Source of the DNA: Trebouxia sp. TZW2008
Taxonomy: Eukaryota > Chlorophyta > Trebouxiophyceae > Trebouxiales > Trebouxiaceae
Assembly: GCA_002118135.1 (NCBI GenBank)
Contig: BDIU01000224.1
Span: 1-64,000, forward strand
Length of the DNA stretch: 64,000 nucleotides
Direction of reading: 5' to 3'
A model generated the notes under the pieces. It did no database searches. It worked only from the letters and a program-made list of their open reading frames with translations, and was not told the origin of the DNA. Positions 1-62,458 of this stretch are shown here, piece after piece (position 1 is the stretch's first letter; each line of letters opens with the position of its first letter). Position numbers and translations under genes: made by a program.

Positions 1-445
1 TCCAGTGTTGACGACGGTGTAAAGACAGTGTAACATGTCAACAAAGTCTTTGACCCCTCCCCAATCAAGCTTTTGAATGTGAAGTGCCCTTCAGCTGTAC
101 AAGATCATGCAACTTAATCCTGCAACACAGAAGTCCAGTGTTGACGACGGTGGAAAGACAGTGTAACATGTCAACAAAGTCTTTGACCCCTCCCCAATCA
201 AGCTTTTGAATGTGAAGTGCCCTTCAGCTGTACAAGATCATGCAACTTAACCCTGCAACACAGAAGTCCAGTGTTGACGACGGTGTAAAGACAGTGTAAC
301 ATGTCAACAAAGTCTTTGACCCCTCCCCAGTGCAACCAAGCTTTTGAATGTGAAGTGCCCTTCAGCTGTACAAGATCACGCAACTTACGCCTGCAAGACA
401 CAGATACAGTGTAAAGCTGGTACAGCATGCAACCTACGCCTGCAG
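1..445 (-). repeat. 133-bp tandem array of amidohydrolase exon-7 copies
   Basis: Three copies start at 1, 134 and 267. The first two are nearly identical; the third has a small insertion near 330. Read on the minus strand, each unit carries an acceptor (TTGCAG) followed by exon-like sequence that translates to LVQLKGTSHSKAW and WGGVKDFVD, the expected continuation of the amidohydrolase after exon 6. A further acceptor-like remnant lies near 425-435. The array runs off the left edge, so the copy number is unknown. Confidence 0.85.
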
Positions 446-3400
446 GGGACAAATACTTTGTAATGGCGATGTGATGGCTCCTTTGATTGCAGTCAGTGTG
501 ACCTCTGAAATGACGTCAAGGATGTTCAGTACAGCGCATTCACAGCTCCAAAGGTAAGCGTAACAAGTGTTTGCAAAGCGCAACTACCATTGATCATTAT
601 CAAGTCTACAGCTCTGTTGCCATGCTGCTGCATTGAGTTTGCCAAGGGGCATGCACCATGTCGATATGCAGATGACCGTCACACAATCAGACTCACTTGT
701 TTACAATGGCTTGAATGGTGGTCAGCGTGCATGTTAACCATCACGTGAGGCACAAAGCTGTTCAAGGTCAACGTAGAACTCTACCAGGTGGGCAGAGGAA
801 CCATAGCCATGATGCGAAGAGCCAATTCCCCATCTTCAGCTGCTGGCATATACACATTCTGCATTGTGTCCCAAGCATCGTCTGCGTCTTGGACGGATCC
901 CATGTCACACACAGTCGTCACCCCTTTGCTCAGAAGGTGCTTGGCTGCTGTTTGTAGCGCCCTGCGTTTGTCCTGCCGCATTTGCTTGGGAATGTGCTTA
1001 GTGACTAGCGTCATCGCATGATCCCTAAATGACACAAAGCCATTGATATACGCTGCTGCAACTGCTTGAGTATGTGGACAGATCACATATCATATACAGT
1101 GGTCACTCCTGCTTGGATGCTTTCTGTGGCGCCCTGTGATTGTCTTGATGCATTTGCTTGCAAATGTGCGTGCTAAGTAGCGTCACGGCAAAGTCACTAC
1201 ACAGCTTGATCCTGATTTTGCACGGGAACTTTCGTGTGGGTACGTGCTTACTGACTAGCATTCTTGCCTACTCTCTGCATGACACACAGCCAATGATGTT
1301 GCTATGAGGCATTTGCTTTGGTACTTGCTCACTGACTGGCATCAGTGCACAACCATTGCACAGCACAGCGCTCTTCATGTTGCACTGGAATCTTTGTGTG
1401 GGTATGTGCTTACTGAATGGCGTCTCTGTGTGGTGCCTGCATCACATAAAACCCTAGAAATTACCCTCAGGAGGCCTTTGCCATCACGTGACTCATACCC
1501 TTGAACATGAGAAGAAGACTTTCCGCATGCCGTTGAAGGGACAGGCAATGCTTGAAGCTGTCTGCATTGCCATTCAGCTGCAACTTTTCAAGCAGTGTTT
1601 GTCCTCAATATTTGCCCTTAAGAAATCTTTGCCATGATGCGTCTCATGAGCTTGACCGTCAGAGGAAGACTTTGCGCATGCCGCTCAACAGACAGGGAAT
1701 GCTTGAAGCTGCCCGCAATGGCCTTTAGCGGCAACGACTCGATCCTGCAGAGTCCTGTGTTGCAAGCAAGCATGCCGCTGAGCAGTGACAAACGAAAGTC
1801 AAGACAAGCACGAGTCAAGACAAGCAGGCGATCATGGCGGATAGTGTGTACTGCACAATGAGCAAATTAAGCATGCAGGGACTACGTTGTCACACTTTTG
1901 TACAAAGATGCTTAGAACAAGCCTGCCTGGCCAGACAGGGCTTGGGCCGCACACACCTAGCACATGTGCTGGAAGGTGTAATGATTACTTGATAGGTATT
2001 ATGCTGATGTCAGTCAAAAGGCACAGCAGAATAGAGCTCACGCCAATATTCCACTTAGCTTGCCCTCATCATCTTTATCTATTCTGCCACCTGGAGGCGA
2101 CTCAGTCTCAGGACTCAGGTTGGCAAGTCTCAGAGCTGCTGAGTTGACAAGGGCCATGTGCATGTCTGAGCGGGACAGCAGTAATGGGTTGTTGGGGGTC
2201 ACATGGTCCACCCATGTGATTGAGGGCAGGGCACCCCCCCAACTGCCCTCTGTCCAACCATGCCCTAGCAACCATTGACCGGGTGCTGCACTGTCTGCAA
2301 TGCATGATTGCAGTTTGACAATGTTTCCAAGACAGAAATTGCAAGCAATCATACGCCTCAGAAGTCAGCCATCTCTCTTCCATTGGTATTTGAAGCGTTC
2401 TGCAATAACGCATTGAGGTTGACAATGCAGTTGACGGCAACAACATTAGAAGTACAGGTTGCAGACACTGTCACATGCACATTAGCAGCTGACACAGAAA
2501 GGCTAACGTAGTCAAAGACAAAATCAAGACAGAAAGAGGGACGGACACTCACGAGCACAGATAGAGAGCTGCTCGCAGATGAAATGACCTTCAGTAACTT
2601 CTATTTGTAAGGACACTCGATGTAAGGACATTCTCACTGTAAGGACAATGCATGTGGTGACCAATCTCTGCATCCTGACTGTAGCGGCACCTCTGAGCAA
2701 AAACAATTCAATGTAAGGACAGCCTTTTTGGAATTCAAAGCAGTCATTACAAAGAAAACTCACTGTACCTACTGCCTGTTGTACAGCTGCAGCAAAGTCC
2801 TCTTTGCTGCGCACATTTCTCAGATCAATCTGCTGGAGTGTGGACCCTCCAAACAGCATGTGCACATGAGCGTCAATGAGCCCCTGCAAACATTTGTACA
2901 GGTCACATGTGTGAAGATCAAACTCTGATACATGTCAATGTTTGCTGATGTCCCGTGACATAACTTGCAAACAATCCACGCCTCAGAAAATGTCTTGCAC
3001 CAGGTTGAGCAAGTCCAAAGCTGTCTGCAGCTAAGGACGTGCCAAGTTGCTTCTAAGTTGATAGATTTTGATGTTGCTGTTTTGTGTAGAGTGCTTTCTG
3101 GGCATTAGGTCAGATTGCATGCTTGCTAGGTGAGCAAAACATGACCATCCTGGCGTCCAGAATGCGACCCTATGTAAATCAGTTTGGTGCACAGACACAG
3201 TTTTCCTGCCATTTTTACTGAGCAGAAATGTTAGAGGATCATCAAGGACTGGATGGCATTCTTACTGAGTCACAAAGAACCCTTGCATGACAATGACTTG
3301 AGCCTCAAAAACTGTCAGAGTAAGCGTAGCTGCTGTTGTTGAGTGTTGCATGACATGCTTATTGGTTTTACAAAAGATCCTTGCAGATCAATGAGATGGG

Positions 3401-5457: not shown

Positions 5458-7369
5458 TCACCTGCCTTGAGGAGAGGAGTCAAAACATAGCTTGCAAACA
5501 AGCAGGGTATTGCGCAGGCTTTTCGTAGTGCCGACTTGAGTCACTGCGGCTTGCTCATGCTCCATTTTGCAGAAAACTGTACATAGTGCTTGAAGACAGC
5601 AATGTCTGTGTGCGCGTGTGTGTGTGAAGGCTTGACAAAGTTGCAGCATGCATGCATAGAATTGCCTTGCTTTGTGACTGCATGGCTGTGTGGCTGCAGG
5701 GCTCACCAGCTTCATATAGTTGTCTTTGAGACCAAGCCTGCTGAGTACAATAGCATAAGTGTCGAAATCTGTGCGCCGCAAGTACTGTAGCAGAGATCTC
5801 CGCTGGTTCAACATGGCTTGTAGGCCTCGTCGTGAGTGGTAATCTTTTCTGTGAATCCGCATGTGCTCTGCCATTGCTTTGATTTTGGCTGTCAATGCTG
5901 CAACTGCAACACAAATGATGTGCTTAGTCTTTGTTGTGTGCTCACATGTGCTCTGGTAGCGTGTTGATTCTGGGTTAAATGCTGCAACTGCAAAAACATG
6001 TGACATTTAGTCCTTTCTGTGAACCTGGATATGCTTGGCCACTGCTTTGATTTTGGCTGTCAGTGCCGCAACTGCAAAACATACGTTGTGCTTAGTCCTG
6101 AAAAACTAAGATTGAACTTAACCTCCCCTTTTGATTTGCCGGTTTCAGCAGCGTTTTGATTTTGGCTGTCAAGGCTGCAAGTGCAACACAGATATTGTGT
6201 GTGGTTGTTTCTGTGAACCTGCATATGCTGGGCCATTGCTTTGATTTATGCTGTCAGTGTCGCAAATGTAGCACATGTATCATTCTTACTTTCTCCTGTA
6301 AACCTGTATTCGTTTTTGACTGTCACTGCCGTCACTGCCACAACAACGTCATGCTTACCCCTGTGGAGAACCCGCAGTTGCTCTGTCATTGCTTTGATTT
6401 TGGCTGTCAGTGCCGCAACTGCAGCTGTTATGCTTAGTCTATTGTATGAATCTGCATGTACTGTGGGCGTGTTTCATTTTTTGGCTGTCAGTGCAGCAAG
6501 TGCAACACAGATGCTGTCTTTAGTCTTGAATGTGAATGTGAATGTGCATCTGCTCTGGCAATGCTGTGATTTTGATGTTCAACAAGTTGCTGCCAGTTGC
6601 AGCACAATTGCCATGCTGATGACTTCAGTCACTGAAAACAGTTTGGCACAGCAGCCTTCCCTGTTTCTTTGGTGGTCACACTATTGTCACAGGCCGCAAA
6701 CTAGCAAGAATGGCAACAACTGGTGTCAGTAACAAGGCACTATTGGGAACGAAGGGATGGAAGGCGTTGATGCGTTGCATTGCCTGATTGAGAGATGCAT
6801 AGATGCGTGTGCACATCCACAGATCAATGCTTGACTGCTTCTCTCGACTTGCACACAGTACTGCAGTTCGACAAGGATGTGCAGGTTGCCACTTGACTGT
6901 AAAGTAGGCTGTACGCTAGATCACCTTGAACTTCAGAGCTGCCACAGTCGCCTTCTCGTCTCTGGAACGACTGTCTAACTTGTTGCAGATCGAGCTTTCG
7001 TCGCTCCGCTGACGACATGCAGTCCACACTCCAAAACTGCATCAAGAATTGGCAAGTTGCGTCAGCTCAACGAAATGCAAGCAAAATTCAGGGCCACTTG
7101 CCTTTTGCACTAGGTCGTCTTGTGGTTCTTGGGCCTCACGCTCGTCGTCTGCAGAAAACAGCGTGGTGCTTAGTATTTCGAGGTCAGAAGAAGGCTATGA
7201 ACGCTTTTAACTCACCGTCTTCCGGCCTTGATGGCGGCGCCATTGGCGCATGATATCTCGCCAACACAGCTGACGAACTCAGCATTCGGGCTGAGTGCAC
7301 TTGTGCCGCATTGGCTGACTGGGCTGTGAGTCGCTGCAAGATCAGACGAAGTCCGTCCACCAGCGCCAT
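5458..7369 (-). CDS. Ribosomal protein uS15, bacterial type, probably mitochondrial
   Basis: Small-subunit rRNA-binding protein of an organellar ribosome. Exons: 7369-7216, 7148-7102, 7036-6925 and 5903-5707. Exon 1 encodes an N-terminal extension rich in R, S and A with almost no acidic residues at first (ATG at 7369), typical of a mitochondrial or plastid presequence. Exon 3 gives SFQRREGDCGSSEVQ, and exon 4 gives the hallmark helices (HRKDYHSRRGL, LLQYLRRTDFDTY, LSRLGLKD). Splice phases agree (1, 0, 1). Intron 2 appears to use a GC donor (AAG/GCAAGT). Exon 4 ends at 5707 before a good GTGAGC donor but I could not place a later exon. Reading through, the frame stops at 5458, giving a 252-residue protein with an 82-residue tail that resembles nothing I know. 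The conserved domain is complete either way. The gene is divergent from the MFS transporter. Confidence 0.88.
5904..6610 (-). repeat. Acceptor-side copies of uS15 exon 4
   Basis: About eight copies of the first ~45 nt of exon 4 (encoding VAALTAKIKAMAEH) with the acceptor GCAG. They lie upstream of the functional exon in transcription, near 5990, 6075, 6184, 6270, 6337, 6423, 6503 and 6600, spaced roughly 70-110 bp. Several remain open; the copy at 6010-6075 reads VAALTAKIKAVAKH and then meets a stop. Confidence 0.85.
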
Positions 7370-7884: not shown

Positions 7885-9936
7885 ATGCCGGAAAATCCCG
7901 CTGCATCAGACCGCAAGACCGATACGTCGGGCCTGCTGCGCGAGTTGTGGCAGTCTGGAGTCTGGAAACTGTTTCCGCTTTTGCTTCTGTATATCACAGG
8001 TCAGCTGCGGGTGCCGTTTCGAGCAGCATTGCATGCATGTTCGCATAGTTCGCACAACAGCAAAACAGCATAGCGAGCTGCGCCTCGCATACAGGGTATG
8101 GCGTCATCGTTCCGGTTACCCCGACACTTATGACAGACTTCTTTGCATCTCGCCACTCAGACGTATACATACACTGCGAGGACTACACATCTCAGCATGC
8201 ACCTGCGCCGTGTCGTGACGCACATTCAGACGCTGTCAACTGGTCCTCAGCTAGTTCATTCATATCTAATTCAATTCTGAGCTTTGCACTGGTGAGTTTC
8301 AAGTTGTCTTTGACAACTGTCATATGCTGCATGCGATGCAAGCTTACATGCATACATGGCTTCCTCAGCATTTGAGATCTCTTCACAGCTTCATCATATG
8401 TAAAAACAATTCATGCATGGCCTTACAGCATGCCCTTTGCAGTGCACTGCAACAGGTGTACACACAAAGTGAGCTGACACATTCAAGGCTTTGCCTTCCT
8501 AGATGCACATCAGCATTTGTATGATAAGTTTGATTGCTGCTGTGTAGGCTCCCATGATAGGCAGTTGGAGCGATAAATATGGCAGAAAACCATTTCTGAT
8601 CATTGCCTTCTCAACAGCTTCACTTCCGCTTCTGGTCATTTTGTGTCATCTTCAGTTTGGTCTGTCCATGCTGTTTTACTTCCCAGCCCAGGTGAGTCAT
8701 TCAAATCCAAGCGCCTGCTGCATGCCAAAACGACATTGTGTGGTCATCATGTAAACATGTTCATGTTCATCATGTAAACATGTTGTACATGTTCATCATG
8801 TAAACGTGTTGCACATCAGGCCAGCATGCTTGTTATACAAACATGTATATGCTGCTTTCACATGTGCCAGAGATATGCATGCTGAACTTTCAAGTCAATG
8901 CTTGGGGTCAAACCTTTCAGTGCATCATCATATGCTGCATGGCAACTTCAGCTTGGCACTGCTGGACTTTTGGCAGCACTTCAAGACATCGAAACAGGTC
9001 AGCATGCGCTACAGTCTGACCACATGTTTGCTTGCTTGCAGGCTTTGAATGGGTCAATCTCATCAGTGTCCATATGCCTAGCATATGTAGCTGACAAACT
9101 CCCGCCAGGTCACAGAGCAGCGTGCTTTGGGCTCATTTTGGCGTCTTTCTCCATGGGGATTCTGATTGGCCCGCCAATTGGTGGGCTTTTGCCGCCAATC
9201 ATTGCTTCCTACATTTCCATGAGTTGCGTGGGAGTGGTGCTGCTGTATGTGGTGTTTGTGCTGGAGGAGAGTCTGTCTGTGCGTGCGAGGACTGAGGTGA
9301 GTACTACAACTGGCTGGAAATATGCCCTGGCCTCAGTTTGGCGCCCATTTCCATGGGAATTCTGATTGCCCTCCCGCCCTTTGGCGGGCTTTTGCCGCCA
9401 ACCATTGCTGCCTTCACTTCCATGAGTTCCATGGGAGTGGTGTTGCTGTACGTCGAGTTTGTGCGTCGAGTTTGTGCTGGGGGAGAGTCTGTCTGTGCGT
9501 GCAAAGACCGAGGTGGGTTACTAAGCTGGCTTCAAACGCCATTTGGGCTTTATTCGGTGCACCTGGGTAGCACCAACATTCTGCTATTCGTCCATGCATG
9601 CATAAGTTGCGTGGGAGTGGTGCTGCTCCATCTGGTGTTTGTGCTGGAATCGCTTCAGGCACGCCAGGACAGAAGTGGGCTGCAAAAGCTGGCTTCTCCA
9701 TGCTTTAGCCTAATTTTAGAACCACTGTCCTGCGTGTTGTCCCAGAAGTGACAGCTGGCAGGTTTGAACTTTCATCCTGATGATGAGTCAATTCAGTGTC
9801 AATCGTGTTTTCAACAATAACAAAGATGACGTCAATGATGATCAACGCAATGCCAGCACCAGCAGCAGCAACAGCAAAACTGCTATCCACACTTAAACCA
9901 GCAGCGATGCTGCTGCTGATGATGATCAAAGCAATG

Positions 9937-9976
<40 letters not shown>

Positions 9977-10033
9977 TACTACTATCTACACTTACCAGCA
10001 GCGATGCTGCTGCTGATGATGATCAAAGCAATG

Positions 10034-10082
<49 letters not shown>

Positions 10083-13000
10083 TACTACTATCTACACTTA
10101 CACCAGCAGCGATGCTGCTGCTGATGATGATCAAAGCAATGTCACCACCAGCACCAGCAGCAGCAGCAGCAGCAGCAATACTACTATCTACACTTACACC
10201 AGCAGCAATGCTGCTGCTGTTGATGATCAAAACAATGTCAGCACCAGCAGAAGCAGCAGCAATACTACTATCCACACTTACACCAGCAGCGATGATGCTG
10301 CTGATGATGATCAAAGCAATGTCAGCAGCAGCAGCAGCAGCAATACTACTATCTACACTTACACCAGCAGCGATGCTGCTGATGATGATGATCAAAGCAA
10401 TGTCAGCACCAGCACCAGCAGCAGCAGCAGCAGCAGCAATACTACTATCTACACTTACACCAGCAGCGATGCTGCTGCTGTTGATGATCAAAACAATGTC
10501 AGCACCAGCAGAAGCAGCAGCAATACTACTATCCACACTTACACCAGCAGCAATGATGATCAATATCAGCATAAGTCATGCAATCAGCAAATTTTCAAGT
10601 ATTCATATGCCCAAGCCTGCATTTGCATGCCCTGCTATGCAAATCTGCAGCTGCAGCTTTTTCTGAGGCCACAAACTTGTTGTGGTAGATTTCAGGCGCA
10701 TCTACTCCAGCTGTAACCGCTGTGATGTAACAGCTGTAATGCATAGCCTCAGATTTGGCCGCAACACTGTTGCGACTTGTCAGTGAAAGCAGCTGGCTAA
10801 GTGCATAGCAGCGCAGTGGCTGTCGTACAGTAACCTCTCCTGGTAAGGACACTCAATGTAAGGACAATGTCAATGTAAGGACAAAGCCATTGGTCACCAA
10901 TCACTGCATTGTGACTGCAGCGGTCCCTCCGAGTAAGGACAGGTTGACGTAAGGACAAATGTTTCTGGTCACCAAAGCAGTCGTTACAAAGACCGCTGAC
11001 TGTGAGTGAATTCACTGACAGGCAGAGATTGTGCCCTGTTTTGCTGCGGCACGTGTCAATGCAATGCACGATGGCACTTTTAAATCCTCTTTATTCTGAT
11101 GGAAAGGGATTTTGCGCTTCAAATAATACATAATTTCCTGAACTAAGAAGTCTACATATTGCTTGAAGCTTCAGGCGATGATGCTGATTGTGCGACTGAA
11201 ACTGCCAGCTCTGCAGAGCCTGTTTCCTGATCTGCTGCAGTATCAGCATTGCGCAAGAACCCAAAGCAATTAGGAGCTTTTTGTAGTGCTGGTAGTGTAG
11301 CAAAGCTGGCAATAGGCTCTGCAAAGTGTGCAAGTTTTGATGGCGACAATATTACCACGTTGTCTCATCAATTACTGTGGGTTGTGTCAAGACCCTGCTA
11401 AGCTGACAATCTTTCTTGCTTGGTATCGAAATACACTTGAACCTGGTGACCAAAACTTAGAAAAAATCTAAAGCCCAACAGCTATGGCTTCCTGTGTTGC
11501 ATGCCTTCAGCAGAAAGCAGACAATATGCTGTCGATGTCTTTCTTCTTCAGGGCCCCGCAGTGAAATTGTGAACACCATTCTTCAAGATCTGCTTGCACT
11601 GTCTTCAAGAAACTTATGAAACAGCAGGCGCTGCTCGACTTGTGATATCAAAACAAGCGCGCCAATCAAGCTGCAGGCACTGCACGTTCAGTATGCAGGG
11701 CATGTTGTTGGTGATTCTTACAAGAATGGGCTGCAATCTTGGTGTTCTATGCAGATGTCTCACTTCTGTGTCTGCTGCAGCGCAAGAGAAGCACGTCAAT
11801 GTCCCTCAGAGCCTTTCCACACAATAGAAGACCGTCAACACTTTGTTGAGGAGCCAGCTTTGGTTTACCCATCTGGTGTCACTTCTGTGTCTGCTGCAGT
11901 CTCAAGAGAAGCACATCAATGTCCCCCTGAGCCTGTTCACACAGCGCAAACCCATCAAGATTTTGTTGAGGAGCCAGCTGTTTGAGCTCTTTACGTGTTG
12001 CATCACGTACACAGATCATAGTGTGCTCGCATGCTTGCATACTTTTGGTACCTTATTGGCTGTATCTCACATGGCTCTTGCTTGCAGGCTCGAGACAAGC
12101 ATATCAATGCCCCTCAGAGCCTTTTCACGCAATGATCAAGACTTTGTTTAGAAACTAGCTGTTCATTTCTTCTGGTCTGATTTAGATGATGAATGCAGGC
12201 CCAGGAAAAGCACATCAATGCCCCTCAGAGCCTTTTCACGCAATGGAAAACCATCAAGATTTTGCTACGGAGCCAGCTGTTCAAGCGCCTGACGCTTTGC
12301 ATCATGCTGACGGGGATCATTCAAGAGGGGTTGCAAGATTTGATGATCCAGTACCTTCAGCTCAAGCTTGACTTTGGCATCAAGGATCAGGTACAGCTGA
12401 GCATTCATTTTGAGGTTACCAGTAATTGTTGAGTCACGTCGCAACCTGGGGGCAGTGAAGTGCTTTGCATCATGCTGACTGGGGTGATTAAAAAGAGATT
12501 GCAAGATTTGATGATCCAGTACCTGCAGCTGAAGCTTGACTTTGGCATCAAGGATCAGGTACGGCTGAGCTTTCATTTTGGTTTTACCAAATGTTCTATT
12601 GATTGATTGATTGATTGGTTGACAAATGTTGAGTCAGGTTGCGACCTGATGGCAGTCAAGTGCTCTGCATCATGCTGACTGGGGTCATTCAAAAGAGACT
12701 GCAAGATCCGATGATCCAGTACCTCCAGCTCAAGCTTGACTTTGGCATCAAGGATCAGGTGATTCAAGTCTCTCATTTTGATACCATTAGCAGGTGCAGC
12801 GATTAGTAATCTTGAGTCATGCTGGCACTTGATGGCATCGAACCTTTGTTTCTTGCTGACTGGAACCACTCAAGAGGGGTTGCGAGGTTTTGTGATTCAG
12901 TACCTTCAGCTCAAGCTTGACTTTGGTATCAAGGACCAGGTACGGCTTAATCCTAATGATTGGCGTCATGCATGTCTAGTCATGTTTGACCACTATTGGC

Positions 13001-28592: not shown

Positions 28593-30470
28593 AAAATAAT
28601 AATAATCATTACATGTTCCAGCATATACTGCTAGGTATGTGTGGCAGAAGTCCTATCTCGCCAGGCAGCCTTGTCTTGAGCGTCGCAATATGGACGCCTG
28701 ATGTTCAACTGTTGAAAGTCGGACAAAACAATAGTAATGTCATTCCAGATCTTCCTTGGGCGACCTGGAGGATTTGATCCCTTGACTTGACCAAACATCA
28801 TGACCTTAGGCAACCTAGTGTCTACCATCCTGCAGACATGTCCATACCACCTCAGCCACTTACTCCTCAGTTGGGAGTTTATGGAACAAGTTTGACACAT
28901 TGACAGTATGGCTGCATTTGAAACACAGTCTCTCAAAGAAATGCCACAAATGTGTCTCAAACAACTCATCAAAAAGACAGACATAGCTGCACAAGGCTTG
29001 TTGAGCAGAGTCCATGTCTCTGCACCATACAACAGCGCCGACATGACAATAGACTGGAAAAACTGGAGTTTGGTGAAACGCGTCAAAGCCCTTGTGGACC
29101 AAACTTTGGCTTTACGCAAACGAACAAAAGCAACGTTTGCTGCAGCAATCCTATGCCTCACTTCAGCATCAATGGTGGCATCTGAGGAAAAGATTGAGCC
29201 CAAGTATTTAAATGACGAGACCACTTCTAGCTTGTCACCCCGTATAAAGATGTTGGTGTTGGCAGCTTGGTACTCAGCATCATGACCCACAATTAACACC
29301 TTTGTCTTATGTGTGTTGATGGTCAGGCCCCACTGGGTAAATGTGTTGTCCATGAGTGTGACAGCTGTGCTCAGATTGGCAATGTCATCACAGATCAGTG
29401 AAATGTCGTCCGAGATCCACAACAAGTCTTCTACAGTGGGGTTCCCGTTGTGCATGATCTGCCCATCTAGCTTATAACTGATTGTGACTCCAAGCTGTTG
29501 GAGTTGAGGCAATAGCTGTTTCACTATTGTGTCAAGGGTGATGGTGAACTTCACTGAAAAGGTCAGGTGCAAGATTGCAGCCTTGCTTGAAGCCTACATT
29601 GGTGGGGACTGGTTGTGAGTCTAGCTCTGCTCTGATGATGGCTGAGTGATTGAGGTGGAGATCTTTGATGAGGGTGACCAACTTGTTGGGGACGCGCCTG
29701 CTCAGCAAAATCTGCCAAGCCATGTCTCTGTCCACTGAGTCAAAGGCCTTAGTCAGGTCCAGCATGCACAAGAACAGTGTCTTGTGTCTGTTGTGTGCTG
29801 ATTCGCACAGAAGCCGCAAGCTGAAAAGAGCATCTGTGCAGCTGCGATCTGGCCTGAAACCATACTGTTGCTCAAGGAGCTGACCTTCAATGTCTTGACA
29901 CAAGCGTGCCCTGAGCACATTGGCATATGCCTTGGCTGCAATGCTCTGAAGAGCAATAGTCCTGTAGTTGGCACAGAGGGAGCTGTCATCCTTCTTGGGG
30001 ATGGGGATGAGGATGTCCTGCTTGAAGTCCTGGGGAGCACACTCCGTGCGCCAAATGTCCAGGATGAGCCGGTGCATGGCCAAATGCACTTCATCACCGC
30101 CGTATTTGAGTATTTCCGGCAAGATGTTGCAGATGCCTGGTGCCTTGTTGTTCTTGAGGCGCCGGATGGCTGTGACAACCTCCTTGAGACTGGGTTCAGG
30201 ATATGAGGGGGTGGAGGGGATTGGTGGGGGCGGGCTAGGCAGATGTGCAAGTTGTTGGGGAGATAGGGGGTTTCGCTGAGAGCAAGCTTGTGCAATGACT
30301 GGTCCACTCAACAATGCGCTCTTCAGCTGTTTGCAGTAGCCTGCCTGTTCCCTGTTGTCGCAGGGCTGTGATAGCCCTGGACTTTGGCTTGTTGAGTTTG
30401 TCGAGGCATTTGTAGGCTGAGTGGATGATCCATATGGCCAGTAAAGCTGGAGTATTGTTCAGGTGCATGT
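28593..30470 (-). mobile_element. Degenerate, 5'-truncated non-LTR retrotransposon (LINE) with reverse transcriptase
   Basis: Minus-strand RT of the endonuclease-type LINE group. From 30314 the frame shows KNNKAPGICNILPEILK, YGFRPDRSCTDALFSLR, DLTKAFDSVDRDMAW and FKQGCNLAPDLF. It then shifts frame near 29555 into WISDDISLI, the position of the usual YADD or FADD box, and GLTINTHKTKVLI. It ends with the typical LRWYGHVCRM and PPGRPRKIW tail and a stop at 28631. About 20 nt after the stop comes an (ATT)n tail at 28593-28606 (AATAATAATAAT on the plus strand). A second frame break lies near 30270, where upstream sequence (about 30470-30320) continues in another frame. No endonuclease is visible. 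The catalytic box lacks its aromatic residue, so the copy is probably dead. Confidence 0.9.
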
Positions 30471-51600: not shown

Positions 51601-53284
51601 GCATAACCAGTTAGGAACGCAGCCTTATTACAATGGAAGCAGTTGATTACACCTGTACACCTAGTCACTGACACTCAAATTCTGCCCAGCAAGTGCATTC
51701 AAATGAATTCTGCAACAGCTGTTGCCCCTGCATTTGAGCATATCGGTTTAGCTGCTGGTCCAACCATTACTTTTTTCAAGTTACTGATGACAGTACAAAG
51801 AAGAATTTGTATGTGATGTTTTGCAACAGTGCGGGCCGCAGCATTGGCCCCTTGGCTTCTGCAGCGCTGGTCCCCAAGCAGAAAAACAGGAACGAGTGAA
51901 GCAAGGCAAGAGTAGGAACGACAAAAGAAGAAGAATGCAAATGAAGAGAAGAGATTGCTGACCTGTGGCAAAGTAGACAGCAGACAATTCATAGCCTTCT
52001 GCTTAGTGGGACACCGTGAAGAAGAAGAATCATGAGGAGACAAGAAGAAGAACAAAGGGGGAAAATTGGTTGCGGTTGCGTCTGCTCACCTGTGGCAGCT
52101 CTGACAGCAGCTTCACCGCCTCTTCTTCTTCAGCAGTTCCCGCCAAGCGGCAGGTGTTGGTCAAGTGTGCATCCAAGTTGTTCAAATTCTGAAGCTCTGA
52201 GTCATACGGCTGTCCAGCAAACAGTGCAAGCACCTGTAGCGCAAATTGAGTATGTTGATGTGAAGGACTGCATGACATGCACAAAGAAACAGATCAAGCG
52301 ATATCCGCATGAAAGAAACAGCTGACTCAAAGTCTTGACGCTCTGAGTCACATGGCTATACAGCAAAGTTTGCAAGCACCTGAGTAGTAACAACCTCATT
52401 TGGCTGACGTATAGGGTTTGTTGACACAGTGTACAAATTGCAGAAACAAATTGAGTCAGACTTGAACAGAGTCCCAAGAAAGGGCATTAGCGCCAGCCCT
52501 TGTATCCCAAAGGCGTCCTGCTGATCTCAGGAATGATTGGCAGACACAATCCGACGCAGAACTGAGCTGACTTTGAGTCATGCTGTTGTGAAGCAAGACC
52601 ATTAGCACCAGCACTTGTACCCCAAAGGCATCCTGCTGATCTCAGGAACGTTTGGCAGACGCAATTTGATGCAGAACTGAGCTGACTTTGAGTCATGCTG
52701 TTGTCCAGCAAACAGCGCCAGCGCCTGTATCACCAACAGATCTTGCTGAAGTGAATTTTTGAATGAACAGAAACAGGTGAATGTCAGGAACATTTGAGGC
52801 GCGCACCAAAAGGCAGTCCCAGGTTGTGTCACAATTTGACGAAACCAGGGAGAGAACAAGCAGCAGCAGCAGCAGCAGGACCCAGTGAAGAAGAATACAA
52901 GCAAAAAATGTCAGCCAAGGAGTATAGAAACAGTAGCTTGCTGTACACACACACCTTCAAGATGCCAATGCACACAATACCTTCAGCTGTCAATGCCACA
53001 TTAGCTGTCAGAGCTACATGAAGACATGCAACAAAGAAGATGAAGGAACAATGACGACATCGACGTGACGTCGCTATACACATATGCCTTCAGGCTGATA
53101 ATGCATACCATGATTTTAATTGTCAATGCTACAACAACGCATGCAACACAAAAGGTAAAAGCGAAGTAGAAATGCTGACGTAACCTCGCTATACGCATAT
53201 GCCTTCAAGCTGCCAATGCACAGCACATAAGCCCTCAGAACAGTTGACCGACAGCAAACAAAAAGAGGGACAAAACCAGCAACA

Positions 53285-53319
<35 letters not shown>

Positions 53320-56300
53320 TTGAGAGAAAAAAGATCACATGATATCAGGAGGAAGCACGAAAGAATAGCTGTTTGAGATACCTCGCTGTATACATATGCC
53401 TTCAAGCTGCCAATGCACAGCACGTAAGCCCTCAGATGGAACTTCCTCCTTTGGATCAGCAACGGCCGCTCTATATACCTGCACCACAATATGCTTCAGA
53501 CGTCAAAATATAAGTCATGAGAAGAAGATGGTAATGATGTGATATGCGGAACAATGTTGACAAGCTCTCAGGTGAGACTTCCTCCTTTGTATCAGCAGCG
53601 GCCGCTATATATACTTATGTCACAATCTGCCTTTGTACACGGAGTAACACGAGCCGCGAATACAGAACTGAGTCTCGTACTCAAAGCATGATTACAATAC
53701 TGTGGCCACACTCTAGAGAGTGAGCTCCTCATTCAAACCAGCAATGTTCGCTCTGTACACCGGCTCAAATTGATCCTGCGCACTTCACTAGTTTGTTGGT
53801 TGTGCGAGGTTGCCAGAAGCAACAGTTCATTTGAGAGTATCAGCTGGCTGCAAAGGAATACACTCTACTGACATGAGACTGTGGGCTGTCAAACAGTTCA
53901 ACAGCGTTATGCTTTCTTACAAGATAGGTCTAAGGCATTATGCTTAGATTGTCATTGACACACACTGATGATGGGTCAGCATGCAGGACCAGTAGAGGCT
54001 GCCGCAGCATGTGACACATCACGTGTACAACTTGGCAAATGAGTGCAAAGTATTGCAGCGTGTTGAAGCCTTGTTGACCACTTGCATGTTGACCATGCAA
54101 AAGCGAGGTGTTTAGCTCAAGTGATGATTGAGCTGTCGCATGAAGGCATGGTCCTGTTGGGCGGCACAAGACATTTGCTGTAATGCATCTTTCTTAGGCA
54201 CCATGCATACGGTAAAGCGTTCACACAAGCAGGAACTACACAATATGCGTGGCAAACACCATCAGCATCTGCATAGGCAGCAAAGATGTGCATCAAGCCC
54301 TGATTGCATCATGAAAACCCTGTTTCCCAGACACAACAGCCAGGCTAGTTGTCACAACGAGCACCTTGTTGCTCAGACTGGCCCGTCGAGCTTTGAAACG
54401 CAAACTGCTTGACCGCCAAGCAATCTTATTGTGGGAGTGTGCTGAGCAGGTCGCTTGGAAGGTGAGAATGACCAGCACACCTTTCTTGCAGGTCTTTGCT
54501 TGCATGCAAGGCGGCTTCAAGCTGTTACATTGCAGTCAAAGGTGCAAATCCAAGTAGCTTTGTTGACGAGGTTCATGACAGTAATAATCTTCCATGTCAG
54601 GATGCTTTGCACACCTTTGTAGAACCAAATTGGTGATTGAAGCAGAATATGCAAAAGCCAAGGAAAATTGTCACCTTTGCAGAACCCATTCTCGCAGGTC
54701 CTCATTTGCATGCAGGGCCGCTTCAAGCTGTAACACGCGGTCAAAGATGCAGATTCCAGTGGCTTGATTAGTGATCGAAGGTTTGGCAATCCAGCGTGCA
54801 CTGCCATCAGCCATGTCACGCACCTACGCACAGACAGACAATGGGTTGAATATCACATGACTTGAAAAGCAATAGTCAACAGAGCCTCATATAAGTTTGA
54901 GAGACGCGCTGAAATATGCAGATTCCAGTGGCTTGATTAGTGATTGAAGACTTGGAAATCCAGCGCGCACTGCCATCAGCCATGTCAAGCACCTACAATC
55001 AGACCAACAATGAGGTGTATGACATATGGCGTGTGCTATTTATGCTGCTTTTGACTGTTTGCATTGCAGTTTGCTCAACAGCATGCATGCATTGCAGGCT
55101 GAAGTGGGTTCTGCATCTGATGTGAACAATCTGACAGCTGCTGGCTTCCCATCAGTTTCAGTTGTAAGAACATTGAGACATGGCAAACACAGCATCATAA
55201 ATTGGATGTGCATGCTGCATGCTTTTCCACAAAAGTCCCATCAGGCGTCTATCAAAGCTACAAAAACAGGCTATTCAACAGCAGCCTCTTCAAAGTAAGA
55301 CCTGTTGTTGACCAGCTGGAGCTGGTGCGCTGAAAAGACACGCGACTGAATCTTGTATGAAAGCAAAACATCTAGCATTAGTTGAGCATGACCATAGATT
55401 TTGATCATGGAAATCAGCATAGCGAAAGGTGAGAACTTGTGCTGATCATTATCATCAGTAAAACTTGCATTGCAACATACCGCATGCATGTCATTGTTGT
55501 ATAATGTCTTGCATCCAGTGAGAGACATGGCATTTCAACACTGGTTGCGTTTGTTGCAATGCAAGCGCAACAGAAAGTGAAGAATGTACGAAAGCAAAAT
55601 TGCTGGCTTCAGTTTAGCATGACCACAGATTCTTGTCATGGGGATCAGCACAGTGAGAAATGAGAAGTTGTGGTGATCATTGCTGACCGGATTTTGACTT
55701 ATTCAAGTCATATCATTTTTGTGAAGCACGAATGAAGACAGCTGGCTTTAGTTTAGCATGCTTACAGATTTTCATCATGGGGATCAGCATAGTGAGAATT
55801 GAGAGGTTGTGGTGATCATCGTTAGCCAGACTTCAGCTCATTCATTCATTCATCCATTCATTAAAACACATGCTACCCAGGCTCAGCAGGCCCAGCTAGA
55901 TATGCACTGGATTGATCAGCTGTGTCCGACCAGCTCGGTCCTTTGCTGAACTGAACCATCCATACTGAAACAAGGAAGTTAAAGAGACTTTGATTGCATA
56001 CAGAGTGTAGTCATAAGTGTGTTGCCGCCTGCATATGCTGCTTTGCATCCAATCAGAAGATGACAGTTGAAGGGCGTGCAACACTTCCTGAAACTTGCTA
56101 ACCCCAGATCATATAGCATGCTGCTTGTTGATGCAGCAACATGCACATATGCTAGCATGTTAGCTGTACAAGGGCATCAATCTCAGCTTGATGTTCAACC
56201 AGCATCTGTTGCGGACATACTGAATGCATGCTGGCAACAGTATTGCATCCTGTCATGGTTAGTGGCACAGTTAGGTGAAAGACACAGCGCCAGGAAACTG

Positions 56301-58338
56301 AACAATAGGCAGCAGGCTTGTCAACGAAGCCCATGCTGAAGTAAGGGCTATCAAAGGATAATTGCCGCGCCTTACAACATCAGCAAGCAAAATTTGCATG
56401 AAAAAGGTGACTGGCCTCAGTTTAGCATGACTACAAATGTTCATCATGGCAATCAGAATAGTGAGAATTGAGAAGTTGTGGTGATCATCACTGGCCAGAC
56501 CTTTTTGCAAGCGGAATTTGATGAGCTGAAGAGCTGAAGGATTTCGACGAATGCACCTCTGGAATATCGCACAAAGCCTCTTCAATGTAGTCAATATCAT
56601 CAAGCTCAAAGATAAAGGCCTCTGACTTCACCTTAGCTTTGTCATGTCTGTTATCACGCTCCCAGGTAAGTTTCTGACACTGCTTCTCATTGCACTGCTA
56701 AACATATTGAGGGTGCAGGATTTCAGTGAACACACCTCTGGAACATGACACAAAGCCTCTGCAATGTAGTCAATATCATCAAGCTCAAATGTGAAGGCCT
56801 CAGGTTCTGGTTTGCTTTGCTTGAAAGATTGAGGGTGCCTCTGACATTGCTTCTGATTGCATTGCTAGACGAATGAAGGGGGCAGGATCAGTTCGTACTG
56901 TCATCCTCACAAACAAGCCTCTGACACTATTTCTGATTGCAATGTCATACAACCTGAGGGCAAAGGATTTGGACCGCACCTCTGAAACATCGTACAAAGC
57001 CTCTCCAATGTAATCAATGTCATTAAGCTCACATGCAAGCCTCTAACACTGATTCTGATTGCACTGCTCAAAGATTGAGGGTGTCTCTGACACTGATTCT
57101 AATTGCACCTCTAGAAAGATAGAGGGTGCAGGATTTCGACAAATGCACCTCTGGGACATTGCACAACGCTCTTCAATGTAGTCAATGTCATCAAGCTCAA
57201 AGATGAAGGCCTCAGGTTCTGGTTTGCTTTGCTGGAAAGATTGAGGGTGCCTCTGACATTGATTCTGATTGCATTGCTAGACGAATGAAGGGTGCAGGAT
57301 CAGTTCATGTTGTCATGCTCACATGCAAGCCTCTGACATTATTTCTGAATGCAATGTCATACAACCTGAGGGCAAAGGATTTGGGCCAACACACCTCTGG
57401 AACATTGCAGGACGCCTCTTCATGTAGTCAATGTCATCAAGCTCACAAGCAAGCCTCTGACATTGATTCTGATTGCACTGCTAGAAAGATTGAGAGTGCA
57501 AAATTTGCAGCTCTATAATACTGATAAGGGTGCAGGATTTGAACCACCGCACCTCTGGAACATCGCACAAAGCCTCTTCAATGTAGTCAATGTCATCAAG
57601 CTCAAAGATGAAGGCCTCCGGCACTGATTTTGCCAGCCATCCTTCAGGATGCTTTGCTGCCCATTTCTTGGTGTTATGGCACAGATGTGCTTTCCTGATC
57701 AGGCCTTTGCGGAAGCAGTAGCAACAGGCGTGTTGATGGCCTGAACTGCAGATGCAATCCAGTTTTGGCAAGAGACCAGCACAGCATCACTTTGCACCAG
57801 GCACATGTGCATGGTGCAGTAATGGAGCAGGAGCGAGCCAAATTGCAAACAGCAGCAGGGCAAATGCTTGTGGACGCAGCACTGTGATGCATGATTGCAA
57901 CTTATGCTGCATTATGCAGGGTATGTTGGCTGAATGCTGTATAAACCGTTGACATGCAGGGAATGACTGACCAGCATGCACTTTATCCCAGTCAATGCTC
58001 TCGTATTCGCCCCAGAAGAACAAGCTGTCATGATACTCTTGCCGCGCTTCTGATTCTTGTGACTCAAACGCGTTATTCGTGACTGTCCACTCAGGCCTTC
58101 GCTTGAAGGCGTCAACGACCAATGTCCTGCAGCAGTCCAGGTGTTTTGCTGACCGCCAGCCACATACGTCGCTGATCTCAATGTTCAAGCAATAGGCCTG
58201 ATCACACCTGATGTATGCACTGTCTAGCGCTACTGTGGCAGACAAACAGACGCTCGTCGATGCTTGAGGATCAACGACATGCTGACTCGCGTCCGACACG
58301 TCGCCGTCGAAAGCAGCGAAACGCTCATCCCACCACAT
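45649..58338 (-). CDS. Tubulin-tyrosine-ligase (TTL) family protein
   Basis: ATP-dependent amino-acid ligase of the TTL fold, expected to modify tubulin tails; 456 residues. Exons: 58338-57972, 57740-57553, 54823-54675, 53478-53382, 52233-52090, 47736-47655, 47218-47103, 46312-46202 and 45765-45649. They sum to 1371 nt with matching phases (1,0,2,0,0,1,0,0). Landmarks: CFRKGLIRKAHL and ELDDIDYIEEAL (exon 2); WIAKPS with the ATP-contacting lysine K199 (exon 3); ERPLLIQRRKFHLRAYVL (exon 4); LDAHLTNTCR (exon 5); LPNCFELFGFDLMID followed by WLLE/ANAEPD (exons 7-8), where E381 and N383 form the metal-binding ExN. The first Met (58338) is assumed; an upstream start is possible. The resemblance is closest to short TTLs of plants and fungi, but I cannot say whether it ligates tyrosine or glutamate. 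An SDR gene sits in intron 5 on the other strand. Confidence 0.9.
45990..46065 (-). repeat. Donor-side copy of TTL exon 8, with an acceptor-side copy of exon 9 nearby
   Basis: 46005-46060 repeats the end of exon 8 (LLEGIM...LAQ type, then CAG/GTGAAT). At 45805-45865 a copy of the start of exon 9 (TAPTAKLDGKK-like; AAGCTTGATGGCAAGAA on the minus strand) precedes the functional exon at 45765. Confidence 0.7.
46327..46366. repeat. (GTGA)n microsatellite beside the TTL exon 8 acceptor
   Basis: Ten GTGA tetranucleotides. On the transcribed minus strand this is (TCAC)n located about 12-55 nt before the exon 8 acceptor, so it replaces the usual branch-point and pyrimidine region. Confidence 0.95.
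46440..47102 (-). repeat. Donor-side copies of TTL exon 7
   Basis: Four copies of the exon 7 end (LPNCFELFGFDL...WLLE) follow the functional exon. They end near 46970, 46817, 46690 and 46450, spaced about 130-240 bp. The first two retain frame through FFGFDLLIDDEW and FGLFEFDLVIDDQW versions. The last is a short remnant. Confidence 0.88.
48118..48915 (+). CDS. DltE-type short-chain dehydrogenase/reductase, intronless, nested in a TTL intron
   Basis: NAD(P)-dependent oxidoreductase of 265 residues, single exon. Rossmann motif TGGSSGIG at residues 22-29, TGRR at 46-49, NNAG at 95-98, N121, and the catalytic S149-Y162-K166 (YGATK). The GIQR after NNAG and the overall length match the DltE group (COG3967), common in bacteria and fungi. 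The substrate is unknown. The ATG at 48118 is chosen because the family N-terminus starts there; an in-frame ATG at 48040 would add 26 residues of no family character. It is the only intronless gene here and lies wholly inside TTL intron 5 (52089-47737) on the opposite strand. This suggests arrival as a retrocopy or by transfer from a microbe. I see no poly(A) tail or target duplication. Confidence 0.93.
   Translation: MAPTSVPKYSPFDLKSATVLLTGGSSGIGQELAKNFIDAGSTVIITGRREQALKDAQAKQPKLKYVVNDVSQVSEREKLAKWIVDNHPEVNVLVNNAGIQRRVSLKDDNDWSTRYTEIATNVEAPVHLIQLLTPHFLKKKEAAFVNLGSLLGFVPTGAAPVYGATKAFVHSFTVACRFQYAKSNIRFVEIVPPAVKSNLGGSHDYGEECDEFCEHVFKRFAAGEAEVGFRMSEEGRLADRAGLDHRAEAMFEKMGKEISVFDSQS
49860..51150. 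repeat. Satellite with units in both orientations (TTL intron 5)
   Basis: About eight units of roughly 120-210 bp sharing TCTGTGAGCGCCTCAG, GGCTGACTCAGC, TCACCAAGGTGCTCGCAGAC and GAGCGCCCATTTGTGGT. Units near 49990, 50131, 50253, 50512, 50705 and 51121 face one way. Those near 49900 and 50290-50450 face the other way, so they can form long hairpins. I could not link it to an exon of TTL. Confidence 0.75.
51950..52740 (-). repeat. Copies of TTL exon 5 on both sides
   Basis: Upstream in transcription (about 52690-52740, 52590, 52500 and 52360-52385) are acceptor-side copies of LALFAGQPYDSE (GCTGGACAACAGCATGACTC type). Downstream (51955-52015) is a donor-side copy matching KLLSELPQ. The functional exon is 52233-52090. 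Confidence 0.75.
52930..53770 (-). repeat. Copies of TTL exon 4 on both sides, with a CAG tract
   Basis: Donor-side copies (LGSLKAYVYSE type) end near 53184, 53070 and 52937, about 115-135 bp apart. Acceptor-side copies of the start (IERPLLIQR; GCGGCCGCTATATATAC) lie near 53610 and 53760. Between them, (CAG)n tracts occur at 53287-53321 and 52857-52881. The functional exon is 53478-53382. Confidence 0.82.
54400..54995 (-). repeat. Copies of TTL exon 3 on both sides
   Basis: An acceptor-side copy (about 54992-54910) repeats MADGSARWISKSSITNQATGI in nearly full form. A donor-side copy (about 54570-54490) matches TGICIFD...LEAALHA with changes. A shorter remnant lies near 54400. The functional exon is 54823-54675. 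Confidence 0.82.
56555..57552 (-). repeat. Donor-side copies of TTL exon 2
   Basis: Five copies of the exon 2 end (AFIFELDDIDYIEEALCDVPE then donor GTG) follow the functional exon (ends 57553). Their donors lie near 57396, 57148, 56982, 56737 and 56558, spaced about 155-250 bp. The 56558 copy is almost intact over 60 nt, although it is the farthest from the exon. Confidence 0.92.
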
Positions 58339-58946: not shown

Positions 58947-61414
58947 TCAGGCCTGCTCACTTTTGGCAAGCGCTATAAGGTTGAACTTGATTGTGTTGGC
59001 ATTGGCAATAAACTTCTTGACCACTTCTGTTGAGTCCTGCAACACATGACGGTACTTTCAGTCCATGGTTTGCAACAAGGTTTTAGCACCAAACATAGGA
59101 AACAGTGATTGCACTAGCACTGATGCAATGCTGAATGCAGTGCCAATGTGTTACTGGTGATGCCCATGCTACATTGTGCCTGACTAGGCAACCAGGGCCT
59201 GAATGAACAGTGCTCATGTGCTCAACTATGACCTGCAAAGCTTTCTTGTGTCAGCCACATGTGCAATGCATGCCTGTGCTTGCTGTACTGGTTCATGCTA
59301 TGCAAACGCTGAACTTGAGATTCTATGTGACATCTTGCCGGCTGTGTTCAGACCCATACCTGTAGCAACGTGCTGTCTGAAGTTTTGCCATGGTCTATCG
59401 GAAAAGACTTGCGCCCATCCAATTCCACTAGGCGGTTGTTTCTGTTGACTAGCGCAACAAAGTGCAAGTCTACAACGTCCTCTAAGGCAGGAGGTGCTGT
59501 GTCACCTTCCTGTGCAGCTGCCTGCATTGCATAAGATGTGTATTTTGGCACGTCACCATTCTATGCAGCTGCTTACATTGCATAACATGCATCATTCTCC
59601 CACAGTACCTTCTGATGCAGCTGCCAGCATTATACAAACATGCATCAACTGACATGACCTTGCATGCAGCTGACTTGCACTGTGTCAAGCTTGTGATATG
59701 ACTCACAGCATTGCAAGATGCATTCAATTACAGCGCATCTTGCAATGCTGTAATTGAGCACACAACATAAGTGCAATTATATGCATCGTTTGCCATGCTG
59801 TGCATTGACAACATACTGGCCTACAGTGCATATGCCTTGACCTGGGACATGAAACTACGTGCAGTAAAAAGCAAGTTAGTTGTTGAGCCTGCACAATGGC
59901 TGACTCGCACATGACAGACAGCATAGCTTGCTGAAAAGAAATTGCAGCTAGTTGGAAGACTGCAGTTCAAAAGTAAGGCTTTCAGAAGTCACATCAACTC
60001 GATCCATTTGTTAAAATGGTGCTCCGAAACCAATGTAACAGAGTGAGATTTACAATAGTGGCTTGGTGCTGGAAGGCACCCAAGACCANNGATAAGCCTC
60101 CACGCATTGGCCTTGGATAGCCGCAACCCGACAGGAATCAGAATGAAGCTATGCACCTCATGGGCTTGGTCTACGTCAGTGAAATCTTGAATGCCTTTTC
60201 TCAGGGTAGTGCAAGCGAAGAAGAAGAGCAAAGCTCACCTCATGGGCTTTGTCTATGTCAGGGGCGCCTTCAGGGGGCTGTTCCAGGAAGTGCCCTCGCT
60301 CATCTGGGTTCATGCTGGCTGAGTCAGCTAGGAAGCTTTTCAAAAATGAGCCCTCAGCTACATCTCATAGGCAATATCTTTGGGTGAACAGCTCAAACAA
60401 CCGGCAGGACAGATAAGATCTGATCATGACATTTGCTTCAGCCAGAATGCAAAGGGTTGACCATGCAGGGGCAACAGACGACAGTGATGCAGGATGGAAC
60501 ATCAGCCACAATCAGTGTTACAATGCAGAGCGATGGCCATGCTGCGCCAGCGGGGGCTTTGTGTACTGCAGCTGGCCTAGTATCTCTTGCTGACAAGCTG
60601 TCAAAAGCTGTCAAAATCCTGTGCAAGGGACTGCCCTGAGTTTACAAGTTGAAGTGTCAGCTCGAAAGCACTGCTGCGACGCAAAGCGTGCTTGAGTAGC
60701 TGTGATGACACGGGAAAGTTCCTTGCAATACCTTGCAGTCGCCATACACTGCCAGCTTGAAGCATGACGGGGACGCGGTCATAGTCATGCATGTTTGCAG
60801 ATTTGATGCAGTGCCAGAATTGCCTCAGGAAGACAGCAATAGTCTAATTTTAGTTTTCTAGCTTTCATTTGAAATAGCCAACCTGGTGTGGACTTGTCTT
60901 GGTTGTTTGCAATGGCATGCAGTGCTCCAATGGTGCCACACGCATTGCTGATAGTTTGCTTCATGAAGTATACACTGGGATCTGGCTTGTAACCTTGGCT
61001 TTTCAGCTCTTTGTCCTCTGCAGGGCAGTTCAATTGATGGTGGCATGGCAGACTTGGAGAAGCAGTGGCACCAGCATGCATGCGAATCCTACAAATTTGC
61101 ATTTTGGGCATTGCACCGCAGGCAAGAGTACCTGACTCTTTTGCTGCTTCTGACTCTTTGGTGACTGGGAACAACAACAGAACTGCGACGACTGGCTGTG
61201 GAACCATTTGAAGCAGCTCCTGTACCACAGCTATGGCTTCAAGTGGAACGAAGAGACCTGTGCCTCTGCTGCTTAGTGCAGTTTGTTACAGTCTTACCGC
61301 ATCTAGGCCGAAAACGTCGCAGAAAGAGTACTTCGTGGTATCGAATCCAAGCTTGCTGACGAAGTCATTGAGCACTTCAGGGTTTGACTCCAAAGGCAAC
61401 CACTTCTTGCCCAT
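58947..61414 (-). CDS. Ubiquitin carboxyl-terminal hydrolase, UCH-L3 type
   Basis: Cysteine protease that releases small adducts from the ubiquitin (or NEDD8) C-terminus; 236 residues, near the 230 of animal UCH-L3. Exons: 61414-61298, 61219-61132, 61017-60883, 60357-60239, 59521-59360 and 59036-58947. They sum to 711 nt with matching phases (0,1,1,0,0). Start [16 protein letters not shown] is the family start. The catalytic residues are all visible: Q89 and C95 in [15 protein letters not shown]173 in [10 protein letters not shown]188 in [13 protein letters not shown]. The cross-over loop region is exon 4 ([18 protein letters not shown]), and the C-terminus is [12 protein letters not shown]. 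Two N bases at 60089-60090 lie in intron 4 and do not affect coding. It diverges from the zinc-finger gene. Confidence 0.95.
59535..59690 (-). repeat. Acceptor-side copies of UCH exon 5, and exon 4 remnants
   Basis: Copies of the exon 5 acceptor and start (GCAGCTGCA) recur near 59565, 59617 and 59665 upstream of the functional exon (59521). Around exon 4, a donor-side copy lies at 60141-60175 and a degenerate acceptor-side copy near 60590-60645. Confidence 0.65.
59706..59750. repeat. Perfect 16-bp inverted repeat with 13-nt loop
   Basis: 59706-59721 (CAGCATTGCAAGATGC) is the exact reverse complement of 59735-59750. The loop (ATTCAATTACAGC region) is itself repeated inverted just after (GCTGTAATTGAG), so two alternative hairpins are possible. 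In UCH intron 5. Confidence 0.85.
60089..60090. other. Two undetermined bases
   Basis: NN in UCH intron 4. It breaks one spurious ORF only. It may be a collapsed repeat or a low-quality join, since partial exon copies lie on both sides. Confidence 0.95.
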
Positions 61415-62458
61415 TGTGCTCGTCGCACACGCGAAGGCGACCTGATCAGCTGGCTGCTAGGAACAGATGATCGGTGTAGCGACGAGCCCGTCACACGCTT
61501 GACAAGTCTCCGCTCAAATGCAATCAAACCATTCAAGAGTATTTGAGCAGGATCGTCAGGCGGGGTGTCTCGAGAGGTTGCGGGTTGCACCGGTTAAGTC
61601 GACATTGCAGCTGGTTGCACGAAGGAACGTGCTGGTTTGGCAAGCGCAAACTTCTTCTTCCGCTGCCAGGCTGTCGATTTCTGAATGGACCATTCCCATT
61701 GGTACTGCATTTTGTCGTACCAGCATAAAGCTTCCATCAGGACTGCTCGTGACACACCTTTGAGCAATTATGACGCACAGCTTATGCAGGCGATCTTGAA
61801 TGAGATTGGCTGCATTATTCTGACTATGCCTAATATGTATGATTGCATTCCAGATCTGAGCGCAAAATTGTGCGCTTGCAATGCAGCATTTCATTGGCGC
61901 AGAATGAGACATCCTTGTGTAGTGATGCTTGGATGCATCATGCTGTGAACTCAGGCTACCAACTTTGCCAAATGCACATGGAAGCTGTTTGCCTTCAATC
62001 TAACACACCGCGCGCATGCATGGCATTCTGTGTGTGTGCACCCTTGTATGCTTGCAAGGAGGCATCGCATCTGCGCATCTCTGCGCAGGCTTTCGTCGTG
62101 TGCAACGGTGTGTGCGCAGGTGTGTGTGCTATGATTGTTCAAGCTGAATTTGAGGATTAGTACAGCTGTCAAATTGCAAATTTGCATGTCATGTGGACAC
62201 TAGGGATGCAGATTCTGCAAATCTTCCGGCTCGGACTTCGCTTGCTTCCAGCTAAGTACAGCGATTGCCCTCACGCGCATCGGCTCGCAGCACGCGATCT
62301 GCCTTGTCTTGATCTGCTGCGCCCGAGTGTCGCTGTCGACAACGCAGCGCGTTTGCTGTGACACTTGAGGAAGTTTGCAGGCAGCGTCCTGCTGTTGTAG
62401 AGCTGTTGTGAGCTCCTTCCGAGGTGGCGAGCGATCGCGCAACACTGCGCTACACCTC
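61415..62458. promoter_or_regulatory. Divergent intergenic region between UCH-L3 and the CCCH gene
   Basis: 1044 bp between two outward-facing start codons; must contain both promoters and 5' UTRs. Short ORFs occur on both strands but none has a recognisable motif or splice support. I see no clear TATA box. Confidence 0.5.

Follow-up and report, generated by a model that had tools for sequence, protein, structure and literature searches.

Tandem duplication across an intron-exon boundary has been described for the potato RdRp gene, in which the 3′ end of an intron and the 5′ part of the exon that follows it are duplicated in tandem, and an 83-bp intronic tandem duplication is reported for the same gene (PMC4974935). 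The arrays that we describe here in Trebouxia resemble this single-case precedent in that the duplication runs across the boundary. As that report presents it, however, the potato case concerns one gene, two copies, and a new spliced intron, whereas in Trebouxia several genes carry multi-copy arrays and the spare copies lie inside a longer intron. Tandem genomic duplication is also given as an accepted route of intron gain in PMC3443670, and in both settings it supplies intronic sequence; in the model outlined there an exonic AGGT is duplicated and an intron is created, whereas existing introns appear to lengthen in Trebouxia. Among green algae, tandem-repeat density in Chlamydomonas and Volvox is highest in introns and rises toward the intron ends (PMC3887541). 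These repeats share with the Trebouxia arrays the algal background and the position near intron ends, but the motifs named in the relevant passages of that paper are short, and neither exon-derived copies nor sidedness is described in them. Direct repeats of 4–30 bp are further stated to border introns (PMC11782384); like the Trebouxia arrays they adjoin splice sites, but they are much shorter, are discussed there as insertion marks, and are not exon-edge arrays. Searches of an open-access library turned up no description of multi-copy exon-edge arrays in many genes of a single genome, or of exon-edge arrays in Trebouxia, and the word "tandem" does not occur in the available text of the Trebouxia A48 genome paper (PMC12712428).

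The window, meaning the whole stretch of DNA that was analyzed, spans 64,000 nucleotides (contig C216:1–64000) of a 68.5-Mb assembly of 527 contigs, which was the one searched with probes; with the window included, about 233 kb of this one genome was examined. Because ab initio gene prediction failed, a splice-aware aligner was written. In the ab initio trials, self-training drifted and genes were merged, and these models were discarded; a leave-one-gene-out test, for which the training set consisted of two genes only, recovered almost nothing. Exon models of CRTISO, TTL, and MFS were then derived from splice-aware protein-to-genome alignment to P0002, P0145, and P0121, respectively. The CRTISO gene (35143..44539, plus strand) is complete, with a full-length alignment to P0002, GT-AG introns, and 10 exons at 35143–35416, 35517–35663, 36488–36567, 37618–37801, 39250–39403, 40123–40313, 41167–41376, 42035–42267, 42983–43182, and 44419–44539; a protein of Trebouxia sp. 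C0009 matches its product at 84% identity over the query. The TTL gene (45652..58338, minus strand) likewise has 10 exons, at 58208–58338, 57972–58126, 57553–57740, 54675–54823, 53382–53478, 52090–52233, 47655–47736, 47103–47218, 46202–46312, and 45652–45765, and its product shares 83% identity, across 94% of the query, with a protein of Trebouxia sp. C0006. For the MFS gene (7918..25409, plus strand), four tiny terminal exons were dropped from the alignment as unreliable and nine core exons were kept, at 7918–7999, 8095–8291, 8548–8691, 9042–9296, 12199–12390, 16451–16553, 16846–16997, 17176–17296, and 25251–25409, the first of which has a poor acceptor score. The three modeled proteins align with their homologues without large insertions. 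These splice-aware models support the claim that, among the copies, the functional exon is the one in which reading frame and splice phase are preserved.

Comparison of the window with itself yielded 237 local self-matches, against none in three first-order Markov sequences of 64 kb (E ≤ 1e-4), and 34 tandem-like arrays with unit sizes of 85–291 bp were cataloged. When the exons of CRTISO, TTL, and MFS were compared with their own genes (E ≤ 1e-3), 69 exon matches were obtained. All 23 copies that cross the 5′ edge of an exon lie upstream of it, and all 16 that cross a 3′ edge lie downstream, 15 of them at donors and one where the last CRTISO exon ends; the predicted placement of 5′ exon parts upstream and 3′ parts downstream was thus recovered in full. 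The remaining 30 matches cross neither edge (21 downstream, 9 upstream). Not one of the 69 comprises a whole exon including its two edges, and inverted copies are absent at this threshold, though inverted matches occur elsewhere in the gene regions; six short inverted exon matches (12–39 bp) emerge at E ≤ 1e-2. The copies stand in periodic register with the exon, in direct orientation, as tandem arrays do. Among the 27 arrays in the three modeled genes, 15 run across an exon edge in the alignment. At least 4 of the other 12 contain copies linked to an exon edge.

Arrays are found at six of the CRTISO exons, all on the plus strand. Acceptor arrays with copies upstream occur at exon 3 (35915..36528) and at exon 4 (37274..37710), the latter exon also having a donor-side copy downstream (37729..37937). 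Further acceptor arrays are present at exon 5 (38429..39347, unit about 132 bp), exon 6 (39520..40198, unit about 168 bp; used as a genome probe, it matched only itself), exon 9 (42502..43003), and exon 10 (43908..44491), and donor-side copies follow exon 9 (43114..43401). In TTL, on the minus strand, a donor array with five donor copies lies downstream of exon 3 (56535..57632) and another at exon 8 (46682..47184), while acceptor-side copies lie upstream of exon 4 (54735..55025) and exon 5 (53426..53630). MFS, on the plus strand, has a donor-side copy downstream of exon 4 (9128..9531), an array that flanks exon 5 on both sides (11757..12947), with decayed copies of the 3′ part of this exon running on to about 16000, and a donor-side array with a 143-bp unit downstream of exon 9 (25332..25844).

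Arrays had been noted in seven genes, and the remaining four gave a mixed picture. An acceptor-side array whose copies cross the acceptor lies upstream of the uS15 exon (5840..6509, minus strand), the Pfam match of which is above cut-off. GNAT contributes one exon, with a Pfam match below cut-off (E.006), and a 130-bp partial copy (31884..32138, plus strand). In the amidohydrolase gene, one exon (Pfam match below cut-off) has upstream copies, none of which crosses its junction, and two other exons gave no copies in the exon survey described below. For UCH the case is weak: a 51-bp Tandem Repeats Finder array covers the 5′ end of its exon (59501..59625, minus strand), and no exon copies were detected at E ≤ 1e-3. 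The arrays had also been said to radiate outward from each exon, which holds for the position of the copies but not clearly for their age. Copy identity drops with distance at CRTISO exon 4, but at TTL exon 3 the highest similarity is that of the farthest copy (90% at +996), and at CRTISO exon 5 a distant copy (86% at −524) is more similar than nearer ones.

Similar arrays were detected outside the window. The 20 kb that follow it contain 8 tandem-like arrays, and seven other contigs, picked by number and sampled over 20 kb each, contain 5, 3, 13, 4, 1, 2, and 7, giving an uneven density of 1 to 13 per 20 kb. Of ten open frames at arrays on the sampled DNA, seven match a Pfam family (VPS41 three times, NOC2, SBF-like, coatomer epsilon, and a VLRF1-like domain). 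We also surveyed 13 exons with heuristic ends (10 with Pfam matches above cut-off and 3 below), seven of which are on other contigs and were chosen because they are located at arrays. This survey found 10 acceptor-side copies upstream, 3 donor-side copies downstream, 21 non-crossing copies, and 3 overlapping ones. One acceptor copy downstream and one donor copy upstream were on the wrong side, both at GNAT, whose upstream copy had probably been mistaken for the exon; the four inverted matches all belong to one VPS41 exon, and 5 of the 13 exons gave no copies. With the family profile PF00270, which is insensitive to short decayed copies, no adjacent partial copies were seen among 40 matches.

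A sample blind to arrays was provided by a CRTISO paralogue on contig C316, which was fetched by homology alone and in which some weaker exons are uncertain. It has eight local repeats, five of which cross an exon edge, while one begins exactly at an acceptor, one is exon-internal and ends 31 bp before the donor, and one is intronic. All seven exon copies lie on the predicted side. The central claim, that introns here have grown by gene-specific duplication across splice junctions, is supported in unrelated genes of the window, on other contigs, and in this paralogue.

In our judgment, this intron growth is likely caused by short tandem duplications that occur frequently and are filtered through selection acting on the exon. 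Short direct tandem duplications with units of about 85–290 bp would arise often in the genome, and those tolerated in genes would either be wholly intronic or cross exactly one junction, so that a complete exon with both splice sites remains. A duplication that crosses an acceptor would leave its spare copy upstream of the exon and one that crosses a donor would leave it downstream: when an intron tail and an exon head are duplicated, only the downstream head joins the rest of the exon, and when an exon tail and an intron head are duplicated, only the upstream tail does. The two-sided geometry is thus forced for head-to-tail duplication, because a single copy placed otherwise would interrupt or repeat the exon. 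In the original prediction this geometry was taken as the sign of an undescribed process, a reading that these results do not support; the pattern is real, but sidedness shows only head-to-tail duplication and an exon under selection, and special machinery is unneeded. Spare half-exons with a single splice site would probably be poor substrates for exon definition and would remain intronic and decay, and a repeat once seeded could expand further and lengthen the intron. The genome in this way allows intron growth to be read stepwise, each step carrying a recognizable, datable piece of the neighboring exon, so that intron growth, the tolerance of decoy sites, and the neglect of half-exons by splicing become directly testable.

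A different reading makes the junction itself the target, with exon-intron borders preferentially copied, for example via a transcription- or splicing-linked break, and exon edges seeding arrays at a far higher rate than other DNA. We give it a small chance, and we are equally doubtful of its wider form, in which borders would be duplication hot spots and introns would lengthen from both ends by transcription- or splicing-coupled copying as part of lineage-wide gene growth. With introns as long as they are now, a junction is expected to be crossed by 25%, 15%, and 11% of the duplications that are tolerated in CRTISO, TTL, and MFS, respectively, whereas 8/8, 4/8, and 3/11 of the observed arrays cross one. 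The CRTISO share is well above this null (P about 1.5e-5 to 2e-4), the excess in TTL is marginal, and MFS shows none; in addition, arrays are sparse in those parts of the window that look non-genic, the annotation of which is not rigorous. Present introns may nevertheless mislead as a null because the arrays themselves have probably lengthened them. Taking 13 array-free introns (81–853 bp, median 292) as a guide, the expected junction share is 51%, or 68% if junction arrays remain detectable for twice the time, the two-fold advantage being an assumption. At least 2 of these 13 introns hold a spaced donor-side copy missed by the array definition, which makes the 51% expectation, if anything, low. 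The strict junction count, including the C316 paralogue, is 20/35 (P.29 against.51 expected) and becomes 22/35 when two non-crossing exon copies of C316 are added, while a count that includes arrays linked by sequence to an exon, with the MFS intron 8 family entered a single time, gives 26/31 (P.0001 against.51 and.04 against.68). Hence, the strict count is compatible with random placement if introns are given their array-free lengths, and the linked count leaves a modest excess in favor of junction targeting. Detection, however, favors junction arrays, since the functional copy changes little in its exon half. Moreover, edge-spanning arrays overlap the exon by anything between 21 and 169 bp, breakpoints show no fixed position, and both exon edges are affected, which leaves the proposed anchoring of the arrays at splice junctions unsupported.

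The copies themselves have lost coding constraint, as duplication filtered by selection on the exon would have it. Differences between copy and exon at codon positions 1, 2, and 3 amount to.158,.148, and.285, and those between copies to.215,.214, and.279, a pattern that is that of a constrained exon beside unconstrained copies. A stop or a net frameshift is present in 19/34 copies. The exonic halves of the units are 84–94% identical and the intronic halves often barely alignable, a gap that counts against this account, as it exceeds what twice-as-fast substitution alone explains. The uneven density of arrays, the surveyed exons without copies, and the unevenness of splice-site retention described below also speak against it. 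Separate insertions with unrelated spacers were considered for the units but not retained. Intronic flanks were tested at five acceptors of C316; they are alignable at two (P.000 and.015), and at the other three, where the tested stretch was in some cases longer than the intronic part of the unit, the similarity is non-significant (P.10,.13, and.35). Copy-copy identity of the intronic halves was too noisy to use.

Half-exon copies might instead be retained by selection for a role in regulating splicing, as decoy or alternative sites. AG or GT is kept in 44/47 local alignments that span a junction, but this figure is biased by the ends of local alignments, as an exon-anchored repeat test showed, and was set aside. 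The repeat test comprised 60 rows, of which 8 were left out, 5 for stopping short of the junction and 3 for low intronic similarity; in the 52 scored, splice dinucleotides were retained in 35, against 36 expected from the identity of the exon part. Retention is lowest at the MFS exon 5 donor (4/14), where many distant copies are old or may lack the donor. Outside this donor it reaches 31/38, slightly more than expected (P.009 to.13, depending on the assumed identity), and restricting the copies to an intronic identity of.70 or more gives 18/19 against about 15 expected, a cut that also favors well-aligned rows. Retention is thus near chance but uneven, and no clear selection is seen overall on the suggested decoy splice sites, though weak retention at some junctions is possible. 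As more than half of the copies are also broken as coding sequence, we regard a selected function as quite improbable. Whatever their fate in splicing, intronic exon copies with good splice sites suggest a source of disturbance for gene predictions in such genomes.

Locus specificity bears on whether a mobile element or introner has spread the units between genes. The units do recur many times per gene, and a dispersed repeat family of about 175 bp is present in the genome. Four probes (the left part of the window, MFS intron 8, CRTISO exon 6, and TTL intron 3), however, match only contig C216 among the best candidates scored, which agrees with the claim of gene-specific units, and the units include the gene's own exon. 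Judged from these four probes and the content of the units, spreading by such an element is extremely unlikely.

False tandem expansion during assembly is very unlikely as well, given that the copies diverge by 6–35%, that a like pattern occurs on other contigs, and that an extra unit is found in another public record. This record, P0144, is a predicted protein that matches MFS exon 3 without a difference for 46 residues. It then has an extra unit of 50 codons (about 150 bp) that ends in a copy of the exon end and that the window lacks, from which it follows, at the level of a protein record rather than DNA, that such duplications differ between relatives. After the extra unit, P0144 resembles, by eye, the intron of the window.

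When the genome was probed with a repeat of approximately 175 bp located in the amidohydrolase gene region (window positions 2590-2765), the best 40 of 1044 candidates all matched, with 79-100% identity, and were found on many contigs. This dispersed repeat represents a transposon-like family, unlike the exon-edge arrays. Short repeats whose unit is similar and TGTAAGGACA-like were also found at 10843-10883 and 43769-43810. The repeat-rich 8-kb intron of the MFS gene carries an abundant local repeat family in both orientations (17757-25003), and a genome probe derived from this intron had its own stretch, 17757-25003, as the sole match among the best candidates scored. MFS intron 4 contains a CAG-rich array built of 96- and 261-bp higher-order units (9835-10558), for which a link to any exon was not seen.

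In CRTISO, the stretches 40255-40494 and 41309-41547 involve copies of the 3' parts of exon 6 and exon 7, respectively, each copy lying 177 bp from its exon; this shared spacing is possibly a coincidence. A second CRTISO-like gene (L019) was located on another contig of the assembly (C316:14003-19559), and exon by exon it showed 38-60% identity to P0002, the database protein used to model CRTISO.

Within TTL intron 6, and antisense to TTL, is nested a single-frame short-chain dehydrogenase gene (48034-48912, plus strand; Pfam adh_short). P0184, a database TTL protein of Trebouxia sp. C0009, comprises only 246 aa and its tail looks unrelated; both features could perhaps be attributed to a gene-prediction failure caused by exon-edge arrays. 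Finally, two open frames on the minus strand at 28631-30314, as judged by eye, read like fragments of a non-LTR retrotransposon reverse transcriptase.
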